From a virus, in IMG/VR virus record IMGVR_UViG_3300025128_000449, positions 1 to 20,387 of that record: a stretch of 20,387 bases of DNA; one strand, written 5' to 3'. The position numbers and the translations under genes were made by a program. Shown one piece after another: positions 8,288 to 19,563 of this stretch. Below the pieces are notes generated by a model. The model saw nothing but the letters and a program-made list of their open reading frames with translations. It was not told where the DNA came from and did not search any database. Each line of letters opens with the position of its first letter. Position 1 is the stretch's first letter.

Positions 8288-8817
8288 ATCTCCGGTACTT
8301 CCAACATGGTTTGACAGTTTGATGTCAACCAGAGTTGGTTCACCAAAGCGTTGACGGCGAAAGCCGGTATGTCGGCTTCATCGGCCAGGCGAGTGAAGTT
8401 CTCTATGTCGATGATCCACTTGCCCTTGCCGTTCCTGTCCCTGCGGACCCGTTCCACCGCTATCAGTTCCCATATGGGGGCTATGAACAGTCGTGGATCG
8501 TCAGCCCCGACGTTGTCCCTGAGGAGGAAGAAGACATGCGGGTACTTGGTGCAGGCCCGTCGAACCGTTAGTTCGTCTATTACGAACAGGTTGCGTTCGG
8601 GGAGCCCGTCGATCAGGTGCCAGCGTTGGGTGTAGTTCTGGTTCTTCTCTTTGATTTCGACGTAGTAGCCGGGCACCCAGATGTCCAGGTCATCGGTAGC
8701 GTCGAAACGGGTGATGACCGGCAACCCCATGGATGTGGCCACATATTCCTCGTAATGCCTGGCATTGGAGAAGTCGTGGATCTTTTGTTCTTTGGTCCGC
8801 CTATAAGGTTCGTTCAT
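8284..8817 (-). CDS. PD-(D/E)XK-like nuclease, phage type
   Basis: The start chosen is the ATG at 8817 (AGAGGAACTGGAAA-ATG). A longer in-frame extension would overlap the whole neighbouring nuclease gene and is rejected. The 177-residue product carries DATDDLDIWVPGYYVEIKEKNQNY (39-62). Here D43/D45 followed by E54-I-K56 matches the D-X(n)-EXK core of PD-(D/E)XK nucleases. A preceding helix (HYEEYVATSMGLPVITRF) and a following beta-alpha segment (RNLFVIDELTVRRA) complete the fold. It probably acts on phage or host DNA during replication or recombination; the substrate is not inferable. Confidence 0.6.
   Translation of the reverse strand: MNEPYRRTKEQKIHDFSNARHYEEYVATSMGLPVITRFDATDDLDIWVPGYYVEIKEKNQNYTQRWHLIDGLPERNLFVIDELTVRRACTKYPHVFFLLRDNVGADDPRLFIAPIWELIAVERVRRDRNGKGKWIIDIENFTRLADEADIPAFAVNALVNQLWLTSNCQTMLEVPEI
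8311..8328. promoter_or_regulatory. TTGACA-N6-TGTCAA palindrome, perfect (3' end of nuclease gene)
   Basis: Spacer GTTTGA. It lies ~25 bases upstream of the ATG at 8287, in a position similar to the intergenic sites, although here the DNA is still coding. Confidence 0.65.
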
Positions 8818-9163
8818 TTTCCAGTTCCTCTGGCAGGCCCAGCAAACTCCAGGCCTCCAGTAACTCGTAGAGGAACTCCGCATCCACAATGGCAACTGTT
8901 CCGGGCGATTTTGACAGTCTCCTGTCACCGTCCGCTGCCACGATGGCCCATTGGTAACTGCTAGACACTTCTCGGATCTTCCGAACCCATTCCCGTATGT
9001 CCCACTGCTTCCGGTGCTTGGCCTCCACAGGAAACGGCACCCCGGAAAAGTCGTCGGACTTGTTGTTGGCCTTGGCCCGATCCGCTTCAGGCCAAATCTC
9101 CTGCAAGGCGACAAGCACTTCGTTCTCAAAGGCGGTGCCTTTGGCCTTGGAAGGATTCGACAT
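8801..9163 (-). CDS. Holliday-junction-resolvase-like PD-(D/E)XK nuclease
   Basis: This 120-residue protein has the order of motifs seen in small phage resolvase-like nucleases. These are a KGTAFENEVLVAL helix with E13, a SDDFSGVPFPVEAKHRK core where D37/D38 and E47-A-K49 form the metal site, and an SYQWAIVAADGDRR strand (69-82) after it. These enzymes cut branched DNA formed during replication and recombination and help resolve concatemers before packaging. The gene follows the primase and overlaps the next nuclease by 17 bases. The ATG at 9163 is chosen; an ATG five bases upstream is in another frame. Confidence 0.75.
   Translation of the reverse strand: MSNPSKAKGTAFENEVLVALQEIWPEADRAKANNKSDDFSGVPFPVEAKHRKQWDIREWVRKIREVSSSYQWAIVAADGDRRLSKSPGTVAIVDAEFLYELLEAWSLLGLPEELENERTL
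8911..8928. promoter_or_regulatory. TTGACA-N6-TGTCAC palindrome, one mismatch (intragenic)
   Basis: Spacer GTCTCC. It lies in the resolvase-like nuclease gene, about 95 bases upstream of the start of the second nuclease gene. Confidence 0.5.
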
Positions 9164-9169
9164 CGCATC

Positions 9170-10060
9170 TCAGTTTACTACGGGAGGCACCCAGCCTCCG
9201 GCCAATGCCTCCGCCAGGCGTCCGCCAGGCAGAAGAATGCCCTGGACATCGAAGCCGTCCAAAGTCTCCTTGATCTTGGTGGCGGCCTTCCGGCCTGCCG
9301 TGTCATCGTCCAGCACAAGGAACGTCGACTCGTAGGGCCACCCATTGAACCAGCGGGCCTGCACAGCCCCGGCCCCTGCCGGGAGACCATAAACAACATG
9401 TCTCTCGTCGTGCCGTAGGGCCTTCGTCAGGCACCATGTGTCTGATTCCCCTTCACAGATCCAGGCGTGGGTAGCGTCGGGCCTGTATAGGACGCTGTAT
9501 AAGGCCACGGTAAATCGGCTCCCTTTGATGCTGAGTTTGGTGTCTGCACCAATGGTACTCCTGGTCTTTATCCCCACAATCTTGCCCTCGTGCCAGAACG
9601 GCACCCACAGGGCGTACTTGGTTACCTTGACTCCGAACGATTCGATGTCTTCCAGGGTCAGGTAGGGCCATTTCTTTTCTACCCTGGCCATGGCATCTGT
9701 ACGAGATGATGCACAGCCATCTGGTTCATCGTTGAATCTGCCAGTCAGGTCCGTGAGGGGCTTGGGAACTATCGGGTCCCGCTTACCGTCCATGCCTTCC
9801 GCTTGACACAGAAATGTCAAAGCACGCCAGAAGTTGCAGCCCAAAACCATCTTCACGAACTCAATCTGGTCTCCGCCCTGGCCTGTAGAGAAGTCGTAGA
9901 AGTCGTACTCGTAGATGTGAAGGCTGGGAACATTCTCTTCGGGGTTGTGGACCGACCTGATCTTATGGGTGCTGTCGGGCGGGTCCAGGGCCAGCAGATC
10001 CAGGACGGTCTCCATGCGGACCTCAGCAGCAATCTCCTTCATTTCTACTAGGTCATCCAC
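9170..10060 (-). CDS. DNA primase with TOPRIM domain, zinc ligands absent
   Basis: The 296-residue protein has two parts. Residues ~37-70 (HNPEENVPSLHIYEYDFYDFSTGQGGDQIEFVKMV) line up with the CHC2 zinc-binding domain of DnaG-type primases (P-x-H-x-E-x-x-PSF...G-x-GGD-x-I-x-F), but the cysteines are replaced and only one histidine remains. A TOPRIM domain follows, with WICEGESD (E203) and FLVLDDDTAG (D251/D253), the acidic residues that bind catalytic metal. It should synthesise RNA primers at the fork with the separate helicase encoded at 10453-11331, like a split T7 gp4. The GTG start overlaps the previous stop by 8 bases; an ATG at 10042 is an alternative. Confidence 0.8.
   Translation of the reverse strand: MDDLVEMKEIAAEVRMETVLDLLALDPPDSTHKIRSVHNPEENVPSLHIYEYDFYDFSTGQGGDQIEFVKMVLGCNFWRALTFLCQAEGMDGKRDPIVPKPLTDLTGRFNDEPDGCASSRTDAMARVEKKWPYLTLEDIESFGVKVTKYALWVPFWHEGKIVGIKTRSTIGADTKLSIKGSRFTVALYSVLYRPDATHAWICEGESDTWCLTKALRHDERHVVYGLPAGAGAVQARWFNGWPYESTFLVLDDDTAGRKAATKIKETLDGFDVQGILLPGGRLAEALAGGWVPPVVN
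9803..9820. promoter_or_regulatory. TTGACA-N6-TGTCAA palindrome, perfect (intragenic)
   Basis: Spacer CAGAAA. It lies within the N-terminal third of the primase gene. Confidence 0.65.
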
Positions 10061-10452: not shown

Positions 10453-11331
10453 TTAGAACTCCAGTTGCCCACTGGGCAGGTCGGATGGCATCGGGACAAG
10501 AGAGCCCGTTTGTGTGTCGAAGTAGTGCCTGACGCCATCAGGGTAGATCCCGCCGGATGAGCGTGTCTTGAGGAACTGGAGTCGAAAGTCGTCCTCCATG
10601 GCTACCCGCATGTCCTGGCCCAAGCCGGGGTTCAGGCAAGGTCGGAAGGCCCCAGCGACGTAGTCGGCGGACATCTCCCCGCCGAACCTGGCGTCAGTCA
10701 TTGAGAGGGGCATGTGGCCCTGGTTCCCGTCCCCTCGTTTGACCTGGTGCAGGACCACTAGGGCAATGTCCTCCTTCCGGGCGAAGTCTTTGAGAGCCCA
10801 CCCCAGTTTGTCCACGCTTTCTACCTGGCTCATACCTGGGGACTTGACGAGTTCCATGTAATCGACAACAGCCAACCGGGCCCGCTGGCCAAAGTTGTCT
10901 GCGTACTCTTCCAGGGCCAGGCTCATCGCCCTCACGGACAGGCCCGGTTCGTCCTCTATGGCCAGCATGGGGTAACGCTCCTCCGCCTCTTTGACCCCTG
11001 GGGCTTCCCCGGTCGCTGAAAGTGACCGTTCAATGTCAATCGTCGGCGTGTTGCTGACGATCCCGGCCAGCCGCTGGAGTATGTACCGGGCGTGCATCTC
11101 CAGAGAGAAGAACACCATGGGGGTGGTCTTGTCTTGGTTGGCTATGACGTTCAGGGCCCACCAGGTCTTGCCGACGCTGGTGCGGGCCAAGAACAAGAAG
11201 ACCTCTCCGGGGGCGATGCCCCCGTTTGTTCGGGAGTCGTAGAGGGGGTAGCCGGTGGGGATACGGGTCAAACCCGAAGTCGCCCACCGGCCCAACTCCT
11301 CGCCAACCTCCTCTAGTCGGCGGATAGACAC
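10453..11331 (-). CDS. DnaB-like replicative helicase (RecA-fold domain only)
   Basis: The 292-residue protein matches the C-terminal RecA-like domain of DnaB-family helicases. It has a PTGYPLYDSRTNGGIAPGEVFLFLA entry (25-49), Walker A ARTSVGKT (49-56; K55), the catalytic-Glu strand VFFSLEM (73-79; E78), Walker B LAVVDYMEL (153-161; D157), the H4/sensor strand LVVLHQVKRG (191-200) and an FLKTRSSG segment (253-260) near the arginine-finger region. The N-terminal DnaB domain is absent, as in many phage helicases. It is predicted to form a hexamer unwinding the fork with the primase encoded two genes downstream. The start is GTG, six bases from the SSB gene. Confidence 0.85.
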   Translation of the reverse strand: MSIRRLEEVGEELGRWATSGLTRIPTGYPLYDSRTNGGIAPGEVFLFLARTSVGKTWWALNVIANQDKTTPMVFFSLEMHARYILQRLAGIVSNTPTIDIERSLSATGEAPGVKEAEERYPMLAIEDEPGLSVRAMSLALEEYADNFGQRARLAVVDYMELVKSPGMSQVESVDKLGWALKDFARKEDIALVVLHQVKRGDGNQGHMPLSMTDARFGGEMSADYVAGAFRPCLNPGLGQDMRVAMEDDFRLQFLKTRSSGGIYPDGVRHYFDTQTGSLVPMPSDLPSGQLEF

Positions 11332-11336
11332 TGCCG

Positions 11337-11873
11337 TCAGGCGACCTTGAACCCGGCGGGGATGTCTAGGTTTAGTTGCTGGAACACCCAGTCAGGGGCC
11401 CGGGTCTGGAACCTGTCGGACTTGACCCACAGGCCCACCTTGTATTCGCCGCCCTTGTCCAGCAGGTTCTTGTGGCGGAAGTCGGGCGCCGATGGGTTGC
11501 GCTTGTCGTTGAGGTTGTTGAACCAGTCGTTGGGGTTGGTGACGAGAGCGTCCTTCCACTTGTCCTCGTCGCTGGAACCGGCATGGATCGGACCCGCAAG
11601 AGGCCCTGGCGCTGGTGCCGGTGCCGGTGCCGGTGCTGGTGCCGGTGCCGGTGCTGGTGCCGGTGCTGGTGCCGGTGCCGGTGCCACCGGAGCCGCTGCC
11701 GGGATCGCCTGGGTCACGACGCCAACTGCGATCCGGTCCTTCAGGTCGTTGTGGACAGTCTCCACCATTGCCAGGTACTTCTCGCCATCACCTGTTCCGC
11801 AACAGATCGAACCCGCCACCTTGGCGGCCACCTGTGCGAGGATGGCATCTTTCTCTTCTGGGCTGTAAGCCAA
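11337..11873 (-). CDS. Single-stranded-DNA-binding protein with PDF motif and (AP)n linker
   Basis: The 178-residue protein starts at TTG after AAGGAGAAAATACA. Residues 1-55 form a helical head, 57-90 a proline-alanine repeat, and 104-152 a segment reading KWKDALVTNPNDWFNNLNDK then RNPSAPDFRHK...VGLWVK. That last segment fits the ~50-residue PDF motif (W...NP-x-x-W(W/F)-(D/N)N-x-x-x-KR-x-P-x-x-PDF-(K/R)HK...LW) known from plant organellar OSB proteins and bacterial or phage SSB-like proteins. The location next to the helicase supports ssDNA binding at the fork. The AP tract probably serves as a rigid tether between head and binding domain. No classical OB-fold is evident in this length. Confidence 0.65.
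   Translation of the reverse strand: MAYSPEEKDAILAQVAAKVAGSICCGTGDGEKYLAMVETVHNDLKDRIAVGVVTQAIPAAAPVAPAPAPAPAPAPAPAPAPAPAPAPAPGPLAGPIHAGSSDEDKWKDALVTNPNDWFNNLNDKRNPSAPDFRHKNLLDKGGEYKVGLWVKSDRFQTRAPDWVFQQLNLDIPAGFKVA
11610..11686 (+). repeat. GGTGCC/GGTGCT hexamer tandem repeat encoding (AP)n
   Basis: About 12 consecutive copies of a six-base unit encode Ala-Pro dipeptides on the minus strand within the SSB-like gene. The two unit types alternate irregularly, so this is a short-period array prone to length variation by slippage. Confidence 0.85.
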
Positions 11874-11885
11874 TGTATTTTCTCC

Positions 11886-12791
11886 TTAGGAGTTGGTTCG
11901 TTCCAGGGCCTCACCGAATGGGCACTGCAACCAGTAGTCACAGAACCTTTCGGAGCAAAGAAACGAGGTTGTATTCGGCATAAAGGTATTACCCTCAATG
12001 AGCCCCGTCGTTATCAGGGCTTTTGACTTCACAGCGTCAATCTGCTCCACGGTGCGTGGTGCGTCGATCCGCTGAAAGTCCCCCTTCCATGATGCAATGT
12101 CATAAGTGAATGTGACTTTGTCATCTTGAAGGATCTCTCGCAGGGCTCCGATGTAGAACCCCGGCTGCGGCGTGTTGCGGTGGCTTTCCTTGTTCTTCTG
12201 CCACTTCTTCTTAGCGGTCTTGTGATCGACAATCCGGTGCCAGCCGTCCGGTCCCTGGAGGACCAGATCGACGGTCCCCTTCCTGACCCACATATTCTCC
12301 TCGTGGGGGGTGTCGTCGGTCAGGGGCAGCATGACGGACTTCTCCACCATCTTGACTTCGTACTCGTCCGGCCAGACACGGCCCTGGTCGAAGTAGGCCA
12401 CGATCAGGGCAGACAGCATGTTCTCTGCGTCCTTGAGGTCCAGGTCGACCCGCTGTTCCCGGGCGGTCTCCTGCTGGTAGTTCCAGGAGAAGATTTCTGG
12501 GTCCGACCGGGCGATCTCGTTGTTGAGTTCGGCCAGGGCTTCTGCGATCACATCGCCCTTCTCTACGAGGTTCCCCTCCATCCGCTGGACGTAGTAGAGC
12601 GCAAGGCCAGCGTGGTAGCCGGTGCCCATGGCCCGGTTGATGTCGGAGGTATAGACCCTGTCGGGGGCCTTGGAGTAGGACAGCCTCAGGTGGCAGATTT
12701 CTGCGGTGTTGATGTCCGACTGGTGGATTTCCCGTGGACGGAACTGGTTGAGTTCCTGGGGGTCCAGCAGTCCTGTGGTCTTGGGGCTCAA
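11886..12791 (-). CDS. Cas4/RecB-like Fe-S PD-(D/E)XK exonuclease
   Basis: The 301-residue protein has a nuclease core: H60 in GTGYHAGL, E150 in VEKS, the KGTVDLVL strand (171-178; D175), and RIVDHKTAKKK (186-196; D189-H-K191), followed by the TPQPGFYIGAL helix (207-217). Four cysteines, C33 near the N-terminus and C279, C284, C290 at the C-terminus (LCSERFCDYWLQC), match the split 4Fe-4S cluster of AddB/Cas4-type nucleases. It probably processes DNA ends in phage recombination or degrades host DNA. The TTG start overlaps the preceding stop (TTGA) and has AAGGA seven bases upstream. The gene stands between the HTH protein and the SSB. Confidence 0.8.
   Translation of the reverse strand: MSPKTTGLLDPQELNQFRPREIHQSDINTAEICHLRLSYSKAPDRVYTSDINRAMGTGYHAGLALYYVQRMEGNLVEKGDVIAEALAELNNEIARSDPEIFSWNYQQETAREQRVDLDLKDAENMLSALIVAYFDQGRVWPDEYEVKMVEKSVMLPLTDDTPHEENMWVRKGTVDLVLQGPDGWHRIVDHKTAKKKWQKNKESHRNTPQPGFYIGALREILQDDKVTFTYDIASWKGDFQRIDAPRTVEQIDAVKSKALITTGLIEGNTFMPNTTSFLCSERFCDYWLQCPFGEALERTNS
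12023..12040. promoter_or_regulatory. Degenerate TTGACT-N6-CGTCAA palindrome (intragenic)
   Basis: Five-base arms TTGAC/GTCAA are perfect, but each half deviates in the inner position. It lies near the 3' end of the Fe-S nuclease gene. It could be coincidental. Confidence 0.3.
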
Positions 12792-13393
12792 GTTCTGATC
12801 CTTTGTCCGTCCATGCGTGCTTTAGCAACCGCCCAGTAGACCTGGTGGGGTTCCAGGTTCAGGTCGGAGGCGATGGACTTCGCATCGTCCCCCATGTCGT
12901 AGCGCCTGATGATCTCTCGCTTCTGGGACCGGTTGGTTGAGGTCCTATTCTTGCGGTTGGGTGTGACATTGTGGATGTCGAAGATGTAGTAGACCCAGCC
13001 ACGGGTCTTCTCCAGGCTCTCGCTGATTTCTTTAGGGGTCAGTCCCTGGATGTGTAGGAGGATTGCCCGGGCCTCCGCACCGTTCCAGCGGGAGTCTTTG
13101 AACGCCTGCCTCACGGTCTCAGGCGTCACTGACAACACGCCAGCGATGTCTTGAACAGACACACCGAAGGCCCACAGGTGCCTGACACCATCTGATATTT
13201 CTTCCCCGAAATAGCCCGCCAGCCGGGCGTTCTCACAGGCCTGGCGGATCTTGGGGGCGTTGATACCGAAACGGTTCAACTGGATACTCACAGGGCTAAC
13301 CTCATGTTCTCCCTGGTCAGCACAGTAATCTCGCATCAACACGGAGACCCAATCAGGGTCGGGAGCGTCGATAGCCTCAGCGATTGTTTGCAA
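12788..13393 (-). CDS. DNA-binding protein with three helix-turn-helix units
   Basis: The start is TTG at 13393, directly after a strong SD (ACAGGAGGAACACT-TTG). A longer in-frame reading into the endolysin gene is rejected. The 201-residue product has a helical N-terminus (1-65) and three similar HTH-like units: VRHLWAFGVSVQDIAGVLSV (70-89), ILLHIQGLTPKEISESLEKT (111-130) and EIIRRYDMGDDAKSIASDLN (160-179). Each has the shape G-x-(S/T/D)-x-x-(E/D/S)-I-A/S-x-x-L. Proteins with tandem small HTHs act as transcription factors or resolvase-like DNA binders. Because it lies among replication genes it could be a regulator, possibly of the dispersed TTGACA palindromes, but nothing in the sequence proves that link. 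Confidence 0.65.
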   Translation of the reverse strand: MQTIAEAIDAPDPDWVSVLMRDYCADQGEHEVSPVSIQLNRFGINAPKIRQACENARLAGYFGEEISDGVRHLWAFGVSVQDIAGVLSVTPETVRQAFKDSRWNGAEARAILLHIQGLTPKEISESLEKTRGWVYYIFDIHNVTPNRKNRTSTNRSQKREIIRRYDMGDDAKSIASDLNLEPHQVYWAVAKARMDGQRIRT

Positions 13394-13414
13394 AGTGTTC
13401 CTCCTGTTCCAGGC

Positions 13415-13435
13415 GGGCCCGCTTGAGGCGGGCCC
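13415..13435 (-). promoter_or_regulatory. GC-rich hairpin just upstream of the HTH gene start
   Basis: An 8-bp perfect stem GGGCCCGC/GCGGGCCC has a 5-nt loop and sits about 11 bases upstream of the SD of the TTG-initiated HTH gene. There is no U-run after it, so it is not a standard terminator. It may shield the mRNA or modulate initiation. Confidence 0.5.
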
Positions 13436-13500
13436 TCCAGTACCTGGTGACTGGTCAGTGGCAGTTAGCCTATCAGGTGTTTTGGAGGAAGTGGTGGACC

Positions 13501-14253
13501 CTAAAACAGGGAGTCCTGGGAGTCGTCCTTGTCGGCTCCTGGGGCCATGAGATTGTCCCAGGTCACAAGCCCAATCACCCCATCCTTTGTCAGCCCCGAC
13601 GCCCGCTGAAACCGGATCGTTTCTCGGCGTGTGCGCCACCCGAACCTGCCGTCCGGTGGGCCAGCGTCGTAGCCCTTCGCCCCCAACTGGCGTTGAGCAA
13701 TCTCCACGGCCTTGCCTTTAGACCGTCGAAATCGGAGGGGCTTTCGTGAGACCTCTATGCGGAGACCCTGGACAAAGAGCGCAATAGCCGCAAAGTCGAT
13801 CTTGGGGGTGGGAGGGGAGTCGAAGGCCACGGTGGGGAACCAGCCGTCGGCATCCCTGGGTTGATGATGCCACCACTCACCCCTCACGGTTGGCCTCAGG
13901 CCAAACGTCTGCGCCAGTTCGTTCGCCCGGCCAGTTGACAGTCGCTTGTCAGTAATGCGGAAGTCGACAGCGTAGCCGTATCCGTCGGGCTGGGCCTGAT
14001 GGAACGACCCGAAAAAATAGCCGTCGGGTCTCTGCCAGTCCGGGTTGGCTGCCAGGTTGAAACCCTTCTTCCCGGCCCGGTAGCCGTCGTATAGCCGCTT
14101 CTGTTCGGCGTAGGAACGGACGCCACTACAAACAACCATGCGCCCTTTGATTTCGGGGTGCCTGAACAGGGCCACGAGCCGGTGCTTGAGCGTGGGGTGC
14201 AATAGGTCGACCTGGACCCACTTGCTGCTTACGGGGATTTCTTCTTTATCCAT
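13501..14253 (-). CDS. Endolysin: M15 (VanY-type) peptidase with C-terminal peptidoglycan-binding domain
   Basis: In this 250-residue enzyme, residues ~10-140 form a D-Ala-D-Ala carboxypeptidase/L-Ala-D-Glu peptidase domain. VVCSGVRSYAEQKRLYDGY (40-58) is the usual RS-x-x-EQ segment, GSFHQ...GYGYAVDFRI carries zinc ligands H85 and D97, and GEWWHH (125-130) gives the catalytic Glu and third His ligand. Residues ~178-236 (AVEIAQRQLGAKGYDAGPPDGRFG...TIRFQRASGLTKDGVIGLVTWDNL) form a PG_binding_1 domain. There is no signal peptide, so export would depend on the holin at 6518-6724. Unusually, the gene sits in the leftward early-type block away from the holin. Confidence 0.88.
   Translation of the reverse strand: MDKEEIPVSSKWVQVDLLHPTLKHRLVALFRHPEIKGRMVVCSGVRSYAEQKRLYDGYRAGKKGFNLAANPDWQRPDGYFFGSFHQAQPDGYGYAVDFRITDKRLSTGRANELAQTFGLRPTVRGEWWHHQPRDADGWFPTVAFDSPPTPKIDFAAIALFVQGLRIEVSRKPLRFRRSKGKAVEIAQRQLGAKGYDAGPPDGRFGWRTRRETIRFQRASGLTKDGVIGLVTWDNLMAPGADKDDSQDSLF
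13935..13952. promoter_or_regulatory. TTGACA-N6-TGTCAG palindrome, one mismatch (intragenic)
   Basis: Spacer GTCGCT. It lies within the endolysin gene. Confidence 0.45.
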
Positions 14254-14734: not shown

Positions 14735-14974
14735 TTAGGTCGTGAACTTCTCCACGACACGATTGCGATATGCGGTTCCATCACCAGAGCAAACTACCAC
14801 GGTGCTGGGCAAAGACTGACGCTCCAGGGCGAGGTGTAGGTCGTGGGCAGCGTCGGAAACGATTTGCTTCACGGCGCCGTTCACCACCTGGTGTGAATCT
14901 GTTAGTTGACACGAAACTGTCAAAACCATGTCATTGGCCTGGTTCATGTCGACTGCTTTGAAGATTGTAGTGAT
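14735..14974 (-). CDS. Small hypothetical protein, possible AUC start
   Basis: The reading frame is clear but its start is not. A good SD (AAGGAGGA) is followed six bases later by ATC-ACT-ACA-ATC, and the first ATG (14947) is ~38 bases past the SD with no SD of its own. I place the start at the AUC, giving 79 residues. A longer reading from a GTG at 15061 would translate the tmRNA-like RNA and is rejected. The product is mostly helical (MNQANDMVLTVSCQLTDSHQVVNGAVKQIVSDAAHDLHLALE) and ends SGDGTAYRNRVVEKF. No family is recognised. It lies between the tmRNA-like RNA and the terminator. Confidence 0.5.
   Translation of the reverse strand: MTTIFKAVDMNQANDMVLTVSCQLTDSHQVVNGAVKQIVSDAAHDLHLALERQSLPSTVVVCSGDGTAYRNRVVEKFTT
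14907..14924. promoter_or_regulatory. TTGACA-N6-TGTCAA palindrome, perfect (intragenic)
   Basis: Spacer CGAAAC. It lies near the 5' end of the small gene at 14735-14974, about 80 bases downstream (minus strand) of the tmRNA-like RNA. Confidence 0.65.
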
Positions 14975-15006
14975 GGGGATTCCTCCTTGGTTGTCTATTC
15001 GATTAG

Positions 15007-15084
15007 TGGAGTAGCGGGGAATCGAACCCCGGTACCCGTGCGTCCGACATGCGGTTTTCACACGGGTCGATACCTTTCTACCCC
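15007..15084 (-). ncRNA. tmRNA-like mini RNA (tRNA-like domain only)
   Basis: The 78-nt minus-strand segment has a 7-bp acceptor stem GGGGTAG/CTACTCC with a G-U at the third pair and A as discriminator, the determinants for alanine charging. A stemless AAAGGTATCGA segment corresponds to the conserved GG-UUCGAC D-loop of bacterial tmRNA. A perfect 7-bp stem ACCCGTG/CACGGGT stands where tmRNA has P2, closed by only 20 nt. A canonical T-arm CGGGG-TTCGATT-CCCCG abuts the acceptor strand. No cloverleaf with a proper D-arm and anticodon (T33) fits better. The messenger domain and tag reading frame are missing, and CCA is not encoded (A-CTA follows). It begins 8 nt after the upstream stop codon. Confidence 0.65.
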
Positions 15085-15091
15085 GGTTTAT

Positions 15092-15379
15092 TCAGAGTCG
15101 CTGTGACGACTGGTCTTCTGACGCCCACGATGCGACGTAGGCCCTTCCGAAGGTGCTGGCTGCGTCATGTTCAATCATGGTGAACACTTCACGCACATAC
15201 GCTGCCGCCCTTCCTGGCAGACCGACGAAAGCGTCGTCCACCAGTTGCTTGGCCGCATGGAACAGGACAGGTTCAAAGGACACCGTTACCGGTACCTGCG
15301 TCGCCTGCTCTGGGGGCAGTGTTGCTGCCTGGGCCGCTCTCAAATGTGAGTCGAGATCGTCCATTACCGGTTGCGTCAC
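15092..15379 (-). CDS. Hypothetical helical protein
   Basis: The 95-residue product starts at GTG overlapping the upstream stop (GTGA), with AGGAG nine bases upstream. It is largely helical and Ala/Gln-rich (HLRAAQAATLPPEQATQ, LFHAAKQLVDDAFVGLPGRAAAYVREVFTMIEHDAASTFGRAYVASW) with no cysteines or metal motifs. No family is recognised. The SD itself sits inside the TTGACA-type palindrome at 15381-15398. The tmRNA-like RNA lies immediately downstream. Confidence 0.55.
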   Translation of the reverse strand: MTQPVMDDLDSHLRAAQAATLPPEQATQVPVTVSFEPVLFHAAKQLVDDAFVGLPGRAAAYVREVFTMIEHDAASTFGRAYVASWASEDQSSQRL

Positions 15380-15793: not shown

Positions 15794-15811
15794 TTGACAC
15801 GGTCGTGTCAG
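15794..15811. promoter_or_regulatory. TTGACA-N6-TGTCAG palindrome in gene-start cassette
   Basis: Spacer CGGTCG; the inner bases extend the dyad to a 7-bp stem (TGACACG/CGTGTCA). It lies 20 bases upstream of the SD block of the 15761 gene. Confidence 0.7.
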
Positions 15812-16465: not shown

Positions 16466-16483
16466 TTGACACGAAAGTGTCAA
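16466..16483. promoter_or_regulatory. TTGACA-N6-TGTCAA palindrome in gene-start cassette, perfect
   Basis: Spacer CGAAAG; the RNA stem would have 7 bp, and on the plus strand the loop would be GAAA. It lies just upstream of the SD block of the 16440 gene. Confidence 0.75.
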
Positions 16484-18261: not shown

Positions 18262-18279
18262 TTGACACGGATGTGTCAA
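18262..18279. promoter_or_regulatory. TTGACA-N6-TGTCAA palindrome in gene-start cassette, perfect
   Basis: Spacer CGGATG; 7-bp stem in RNA. It is separated by 2 bases from the SD block of the 18242 gene. Confidence 0.75.
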
Positions 18280-18283
18280 TCGT

Positions 18284-18323
18284 CCCTGCCCAGGGCTTGA
18301 ACCTGGGTGCCTGCCAGTCAGGG
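18284..18323 (-). repeat. T-arm-like module F (upstream of 18242 gene)
   Basis: Minus strand: outer stem CCCTG/CAGGG, linker ACTGGCAGGCA, arm CCCAGG/CCTGGG with loop TTCAAGC, a standard T-loop sequence, then ACGA. Confidence 0.75.
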
Positions 18324-18331
18324 GTAGGGGC

Positions 18332-19195
18332 TTAGAGCCCCTGGTTGGTCTTGGCCCAGGTCGGGGGGTAGTGGTCGACGTAGTCAACCATGTCGCCCTC
18401 GTCCGTGAACCAGAACCCGTTGTTTACATCAGGGTCTTGACCGCCCTTGACACCGACGCCCAGGGCGAAGGTCCACCCGGTGTCCGGGCAGGCCTCCATG
18501 TCCCTGGGGAGGCGCTTGTAGCCACCTTCGCAGGTCCCACACACCAGGGGAGCAACTACGCCCCACTGGGTGTGCCCGAACGTGATCTCCCGGCACCCGC
18601 ACCCGGTCAGGATGCGCTTCGGCCCGGGGGTGATCCTGGCCGCCTGGCGCTGGCCTGTGCAGACCTGGAGCGTGCCCAGGGCCTTCAGGTCATCGTCGTA
18701 GGCGGCGATGGTCTCCTGGGTGAGCCGGACCGACGAGTAGCCGATCCGCTCATCAGGCGGGTATGGGAACCCACTGAAGAGCCCCATCTGGGTGTCGACC
18801 AGGGTCGGCCACTCCAGCCCCATTTCCTCTGCCAGGTTCTTGAACCGCTTGTTGTGGTAGCGGTTCTGCCTGGAGCAGTCCTTGACCTCCCTGACATGAG
18901 CCAGCCCGTGGGCCGCCTCGTGGAGGAGGGTCTGCAGGACCTGCTCTGGACCGCCCTTGAAACACTCTCCTGAGATCATCACCTCTGGTGCCTGGGTCTC
19001 TTCGATGGCCCACTCAGAGTACGAGTAGTGCCCCAATGTGGTGCTGCCTCGCCTGCTTGAACGGCCCGTCGACTTGACGACCAGGAACACATCGGGGACA
19101 TCGGGGTGGTTCGCCTGGATGGTCCTCCAGGTGCTGTTCAGGACGAGTGCGACCTCGTCCGACACCTGGACATTGACTGTTGATTGCTTGTTCAT
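18332..19195 (-). CDS. SprT-like zinc metalloprotease with C-terminal zinc ribbon
   Basis: The ATG at 19195 follows the cassette SD; longer in-frame readings into the upstream gene are rejected. In the 287-residue product, LLHEAAHGLAH (91-100) provides the HExxH zinc site and YHNKRFKNLAEEMGL (113-127) the downstream third histidine (H114), the usual SprT arrangement. C199/C201 and C219/C222 (GCGCRE...VCGTC) form a zinc-ribbon-like site. SprT/Spartan-family proteins cleave proteins on or near DNA in cellular organisms; the phage target is unknown. The N-terminal ~80 residues probably form the domain's strands and the C-terminal ~55 residues are of unknown fold. Confidence 0.75.
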   Translation of the reverse strand: MNKQSTVNVQVSDEVALVLNSTWRTIQANHPDVPDVFLVVKSTGRSSRRGSTTLGHYSYSEWAIEETQAPEVMISGECFKGGPEQVLQTLLHEAAHGLAHVREVKDCSRQNRYHNKRFKNLAEEMGLEWPTLVDTQMGLFSGFPYPPDERIGYSSVRLTQETIAAYDDDLKALGTLQVCTGQRQAARITPGPKRILTGCGCREITFGHTQWGVVAPLVCGTCEGGYKRLPRDMEACPDTGWTFALGVGVKGGQDPDVNNGFWFTDEGDMVDYVDHYPPTWAKTNQGL

Positions 19196-19545: not shown

Positions 19546-19563
19546 TTGACACCGATGTGTCAA
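19546..19563. promoter_or_regulatory. TTGACA-N6-TGTCAA palindrome in gene-start cassette, perfect
   Basis: Spacer CCGATG. It abuts the SD block of the 19529 gene. Confidence 0.75.

Follow-up and report, generated by a model that had tools for sequence, protein, structure and literature searches.

A tethered PDF-domain protein in a conserved slot between the nuclease and helicase genes of uncultured phages

The window, meaning the whole stretch of 20,387 bases that was analysed (IMG/VR virus record IMGVR_UViG_3300025128_000449), carries on its minus strand an open reading frame (ORF) at positions 11337–11873 for a protein of 178 amino acids. The frame starts with TTG, and a GGAG sequence is located 8 bases 5′ of this codon. 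Among the 15 coding sequences compared, this position is occupied by ATG in nine and by TTG in three (the window, L003 and L005); the regions excised from the other three (L008–L010) do not begin on a start codon. The translated protein, which includes the segment quoted in an earlier note on this DNA (DWFNNLNDKRNPSAPDFRHK...GLWVK), consists of an acidic head, an (Ala-Pro)13 tether and, at the C-terminus, a basic domain rich in aromatic residues that carries the signature PDFRHK...GLW...APDWV (the PDF domain).

The neighboring genes are on the same strand. A DnaB-like helicase of 292 residues (10453–11331) begins 5 bases downstream of the PDF gene, confirming the helicase neighbor described earlier. 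It is matched by PF03796 (DnaB_C, E 3e-22) from residue 24, and also by phrog_19 and phrog_243. No Pfam match to an N-terminal DnaB domain was found in this helicase. Further along are a primase-like protein (9170–10060; phrog_239 primase/helicase, E 3e-11; PF01807 and PF13155 at E 0.002–0.003, below their cut-offs) and a RusA-like Holliday junction resolvase (8801–9163; phrog_244, E 1e-10). On the other side, 12 bases upstream of the PDF gene, is a PD-(D/E)XK exonuclease (11886–12791; PF12705, E 4e-11; phrog_1218 exonuclease), preceded by a helix-turn-helix protein (12788–13639; PF13384, E 2e-9) and an endolysin ORF (13501–14253). The endolysin ORF and the long-start helix-turn-helix ORF overlap by 139 bases. 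Since the same two ORFs are free of overlap in L004, the true start of the helix-turn-helix gene is probably further downstream.

Upstream of these genes, between 14553 and 19563, ten copies of an intergenic cassette are located before small minus-strand genes (for example at 15794–15811, 16466–16483, 18262–18279 and 19546–19563; repeat families D1–D6). The cassette combines a TTGACAC-N4-GTGTCAA palindrome with a nearby CGAGGAGGAA ribosome-binding site, and several copies adjoin a conserved hairpin that resembles the T-arm of a tRNA (one copy reads CCCAGGTTCAAGCCCTGGG). Together the copies may form an array of operators or promoters, with hairpins that are tRNA-like or serve in processing. A tRNA reported by ARAGORN at 18282–18366 (minus strand; anticodon CTA, labelled Pyl) overlaps one cassette copy; it is either a tRNA that reads amber codons or a hairpin of tRNA-like shape. 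With the tmRNA model of Rfam, 81 bases at 15004–15084 (minus strand) score 53.6 bits against a gathering score of 47 (evalue mode). A re-run in gathering mode gave no tmRNA in 14850–15150, and ARAGORN gave none.

The head of the PDF protein (residues 1–54; 11712–11873, minus strand) has a pI of 4.7 and a net charge of −3 over residues 1–50. The helical nature proposed for it earlier is reproduced in the structure model, with helices at residues 5–24 and 30–54, but at a pLDDT of just ~52–60 (low confidence).

The tether is largely encoded by a hexamer array at 11614–11685 (GGTGCC on the plus strand, GCACCG/GCACCA in the gene). Tandem Repeats Finder gives this array a period of 6, 12.0 copies and 90% matches, and reports no other array in the window. 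A codon listing shows that it encodes most of the 13 Ala-Pro units, in agreement with the earlier description of an (AP)n tract from ~12 hexamers. An antisense ORF on the plus strand (11347–11868) crosses the same repeat. Ala-Pro tracts are stiff, extended tethers, as in TonB and acyltransferase linkers. Across 15 sequences, which include near-identical ones, the longest AP run ranges from 1 to 13 units: L005 is identical to the window protein, and the 13 other family sequences have 1–7 units in a row. Repeat length, which the earlier note had singled out for comparison, therefore varies among the relatives, which are not defined by a long (AP)n tract. In the distant relative L078, an acidic linker replaces Ala-Pro. 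Given this variety, the region looks like a tether rather than a conserved sequence.

The PDF domain (residues 105–178; 11340–11561, minus strand; KW...PDFRHK...GLW...APDWVF) is defined by its conserved columns, and has a pI of 9.5 and 10 aromatic residues. In an alignment of 12 sequences (window included), 37 of the 81 C-terminal residues of the window protein are invariant, beyond what chance would give, including W106, W117, N119-N120, D123-K124, PDFRH (130–134), GLW (147–149) and TRAPDWVF (157–164). The PDF triplet is invariant in 12 of 12 rows of the window family and in 12 of 12 rows of a second alignment. A search for relatives also supports the gene, as does the pattern of substitution. 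In the window–L003 pair, dN/dS is 0.018/0.162 for the head and 0.010/0.109 for the PDF part; the latter is 0.017/0.094 in L007–L021, 0.037/0.589 in L008–L010 and 0.022/0.153 in L012–L015. Hence dN is well below dS in the single head pair and in four of the five PDF-domain pairs, and constraint is undetectable in the fifth (L012–L018, 0.031/0.030, a ratio of ~1). The possibility that the ORF is an artefact of the repeat is ruled out by the conservation of the motif in 12 sequences and by dN < dS in four of five PDF pairs.

Peptide-based scans of IMG/VR found relatives of the window protein on 3 contigs first and then on 19. Two DNA patterns were also used. The first, PDF[K/R]H..G..LW, matched three viral contigs, and the second, [D/N]N...K.....PDF[K/R]HK, matched 20 viral stretches, every one on contigs with a PDF protein. 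In a set of 84,980 genomes, each from a different species, the second pattern matched twice, in frames of just 29 and 9 residues, and both matches were rejected; none of 51 stretches found by profile in this set was confirmed. Further scans added L061, L063–L066, L069 and L078. Altogether, 32 records carry a PDF protein (the 19 contigs, L034, L038, L023–L025, L061, L063–L066, L069, L078 and the window). A relative seems to have been deposited already, as the uncharacterised viral protein A0A1B1IRI4 (BFVD, 225 aa), judging from a Foldseek match to the window model at E 1.4e-4 with 50% identity over 101 columns; the structural fit is poor (rmsd 19.8), and the match is mainly by sequence.

The PDF domain is joined to three types of head. 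Type (a) is the acidic head and Ala-Pro tether of the window protein. Type (b), in L034 and L038, is a different short head, followed by the PDF part WWNNINNKKNPKQPDFRHKTEKGVDGYPIGLWI...PAWV. In each of the 14 proteins of types (a) and (b) analysed for charge, the PDF part has a pI of 8.3–9.7 and 9–10 aromatic residues, and the head (first 50 residues) has a pI of 4.1–5.4. Type (c), in L023–L025, L061, L063–L066, L069 and L078, has an N-domain with the pattern V.Y.RK..V..YE.AEA..., then a linker that is Ala/Pro-rich or, in L078, strongly acidic, and then the PDF part. The linker of the L078 protein (L078:3989-4630) has an Asp/Glu run in place of Ala/Pro. The type (c) N-domain is modelled as a β hairpin and a long helix (pLDDT ~58–66), and the PDF part as helix–strand–helix–strand, with the middle two elements short (pLDDT 71–81). 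L069 has PDY in place of PDF. Except for L061 and L078, the type (c) proteins end within three residues after GxW, without the last segment.

The relationship among these lineages was assessed with a window-family HMM (12 domains), run against 6 test proteins, 1,670 stop-to-stop frames from other loci and 30,000 shuffles. The scores are 49 bits for L034, 24 for L061, 23 for L025, 19 for L066, 18 for L063, and 14 each for L024 and L023, the last two below the HMMER inclusion threshold; all seven phage contigs rank above the best shuffle (12 bits). The patterns that retrieved L023–L025, L034 and L038 were designed around the PDF motif, so that the scores of these contigs, like the broader profiles, partly reflect selection for it; the operon slot serves as the independent evidence. 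A broader PDF profile matches three records, G015–G017, which are outside its training set, at E 2e-8 to 8e-13, and has no match at E 1 in seven phage records with similar helicases.

The slot is conserved. A PF12705 nuclease, the PDF domain and a PF03796 helicase are found in this order on one strand in all 18 records tested (the window and 17 others). Twelve of the 14 records outside this test (L004, L005, L008–L010, L014–L016, L018, L019, L064, L065, L069 and L078) are contigs of 5–15 kb; the ORFs of L078 follow the same gene order, with its helicase set off by a gap. In L025, another ORF separates the PDF gene from the helicase. The gap between the two genes is 4–5 bases in 15 of 17 window-family loci, and the helicase was missed by the ORF script in the other two. 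The script saw a nuclease ORF in 8 of the 17 loci. Profiles rescued four of its nine nuclease misses (L011, L017, L020 and L022) and one of its two helicase misses (L012), and the remaining ones (five nuclease, one helicase) are at loci outside the profile searches. Heads and linkers change around a constant PDF domain in a constant slot, a pattern that points to this domain as the part required by the operon.

We consider it moderately probable that the gene product is a replication-operon protein, built from head, tether and PDF domain, that would bind ssDNA as a non-OB SSB or a helicase-linked ssDNA handler. The gene precedes the helicase gene in each of the 18 records tested, and by just 4–5 bases in 15 of 17 window-family loci, which is also consistent with a helicase loader or adaptor. 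In that case the head would bind the DnaB-like helicase, the PDF domain would guide it onto ssDNA, and the host SSB would coat the ssDNA. The helicase match starts only at residue 24 of 292, and with no DnaB N-terminal domain the usual collar is seemingly missing. However, no loader-family match is found in Pfam, PHROGs or NCBIfam, and the helicase is not directly adjacent in L025 and L078. Moreover, the PDF domain stays constant as the heads vary among lineages, which would place the shared function in this domain. We therefore judge a loader to be unlikely.

One related locus argues against the SSB reading. The hypothetical protein UOF82160.1 (L070:3108-3659, Caudoviricetes MW202803.1) has an N-domain weakly similar to that of type (c), with 30% identity to L066. 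It can be aligned with the L066/L024/L061 type, and tblastn of L061 matches it just at E 0.7. Its gene is in the slot, between a nuclease and a DnaB-like helicase, with one additional gene preceding it, but its C-terminus differs (VWDQRHTATGKQPLFK...GYW). The PDF profile detects no PDF domain in MW202803.1 at E 1, and its protein P0002 is not among the window-family HMM matches listed.

Searches with SSB families bear on the claim of the earlier note that this may be the phage's non-OB-fold SSB. The OB-fold SSB family PF00436 has no match in the window protein at E 1 and none in any of 18 records, an absence that is just suggestive as these records are 15–47 kb in length and possibly incomplete. 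As a positive control, the same search recovered the SSBs of Mycobacterium phage Kumao (one gene before the helicase) and Gordonia phage Rabbitrun (directly after the helicase), two of seven phage records with similar helicases; the other five had no match. The reading given in the earlier note is thus partly supported: the PDF-like motif, tether, head and nearby helicase are present, in a slot found in 18 of 18 records, and the absence of PF00436 matches in these possibly incomplete records fits the SSB claim. PF10991 (Enc34-type ssDNA-binding protein) was searched for in 12 of the 32 PDF records and found in none, and the control genomes were silent too. A match to the T7 gp2.5-like SSB family (phrog_7011, E 0.028) is confined to residues 54–98, the Ala-Pro tether, and was set aside.

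The RecT and ERF annealases were found in none of the same 12 records. Together with the preceding nuclease gene, present in all 18 records tested, and the RusA-like resolvase nearby, this result would fit a recombination partner, an annealing or ssDNA-handling protein that acts with the adjacent PD-(D/E)XK nuclease, as in exonuclease/annealase pairs. We regard this as quite unlikely, as the PDF protein has no match to an annealase family, the records are possibly incomplete, and the helicase and primase neighbors fit replication equally well.

Library and fold searches returned little for the PDF domain. Pfam, PHROG and NCBIfam gave no match of note reaching into it, and the weaker ones that do have E values of 0.01 or more; Integrase_2 of Pfam, for instance, is matched at E 0.032 by a single one of 12 members. 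NCBIfam matches such as internalin K (E 3e-5) and TonB are on the head and tether, end before residue 105, and are far below the curated cut-offs. Ebola GP2, from a PDB profile search (E 0.25–0.85), is a chance match. Among INPHARED phages, the window protein has no match at E 1, and its C-terminal part, that of L034 and the L024 protein have none at E 10; L025 has just E 3–5 matches outside the motif, and L061 has one at E 0.7. Plasmids gave a single match, at E 3. Model quality is low, with mean pLDDT values of 52 and 58. The best Foldseek E value is 0.79 in the PDB and 0.015 in the viral library, the latter for the type (c) model, and the best 50 matches of each list indicate no known DNA-binding family. 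VIA-align gives a best Z of 5.4 (LptE), in the range that the tool calls unspecific, with the PDF part barely covered.

The poor models and the lack of a nucleic-acid annotation in the libraries searched would also be compatible with a protein-interaction or structural motif that has no nucleic-acid role and resembles a plant motif (see below) by convergence. This is highly improbable, as the signature residues are common to proteins with different heads and lie within a replication/recombination operon in every one of the 18 records tested.

The tethered protein is probably how these uncultured phages handle ssDNA, as far as its sequence and gene context indicate. A basic aromatic domain on an acidic head fits an ssDNA-gripping module held by an oligomerising or docking head. 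The aromatic and basic residues of the PDF domain would most likely grip ssDNA through stacking and charge, by analogy with the motif of plant OSB1, and the Ala-Pro stretch would be an extended tether tolerant of length change. The acidic head would most likely form oligomers or dock onto a replication protein, for which the neighboring helicase is the prime candidate. Docking on the helicase is plausible, given that the latter shows no N-terminal DnaB domain. The head may in this way keep several PDF domains close to the fork, and the whole protein would then act as the phage's non-OB SSB or helicase-linked ssDNA handler.

PDF motifs are described in two reviews (PMC6963530, PMC4166229), according to which OSB proteins have one or more copies of this 50-residue, ssDNA-binding motif besides an SSB-like or OB-fold domain. 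In PMC6963530, the motif of OSB1 is reported to be sufficient for ssDNA binding, and the motif is listed among proteins unique to plants. The literature searched, which had most subscription journals outside its scope, gave no phage case of the motif.

An all-phage PDF profile scores 60 and 29 bits against two OSB3 stretches whose letters are unverified, while none of 20,000 shuffles exceeds 16 bits. With the window-family profile, one of these stretches scores 29 bits and the other <11.4 (not among the matches listed), with shuffles reaching 17. Pfam has no match to one such OSB3 stretch, and its silence on the phage domain therefore means little. The fit to the plant PDF motif noted earlier holds in that a PDF-like motif is present and conserved, but the plant link is a strong lead, scored only against unverified plant letters. 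Common descent of the phage domain with the plant motif is likely.

A phage family with the PDF signature in a fixed replication-operon slot would offer a possible origin for the plant motif and a small model for DNA binding by it, as well as a candidate ssDNA cover in phages where no OB-fold SSB is found. A more far-reaching proposal, which we put forward tentatively and consider doubtful, is that these proteins form a phage SSB class in which a constant PDF domain with interchangeable heads and linkers replaces the OB-fold SSB at the fork, and that the plant OSB motif is phage-derived, like other phage-type organelle replication enzymes.

The PDF protein resembles the OB-fold SSBs (PF00436) in its likely fork role, with a DnaB-like helicase nearby as in Kumao and Rabbitrun, and in having a flexible linker attached to compact parts. 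In contrast, PF00436 is without a match in the window protein and in the 18 records, and the presumed DNA-binding part is C-terminal. There are also differences from plant OSB proteins. OSB proteins are encoded by green plants and targeted to organelles, whereas the window is a virus record with phage genes. The window protein has a single motif, a long low-complexity tether and a short acidic head, and the type (c) proteins have a different N-domain. The protein most likely functions like the PDF module of an OSB or like an SSB, but it is not classed as an OSB protein because no OB/SSB-like domain is detected in it; the ~58 residues before the tether have helices predicted at low confidence. 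What the two appear to share is a C-terminal stretch of ~50 residues with the PDF signature, in a context of DNA metabolism.
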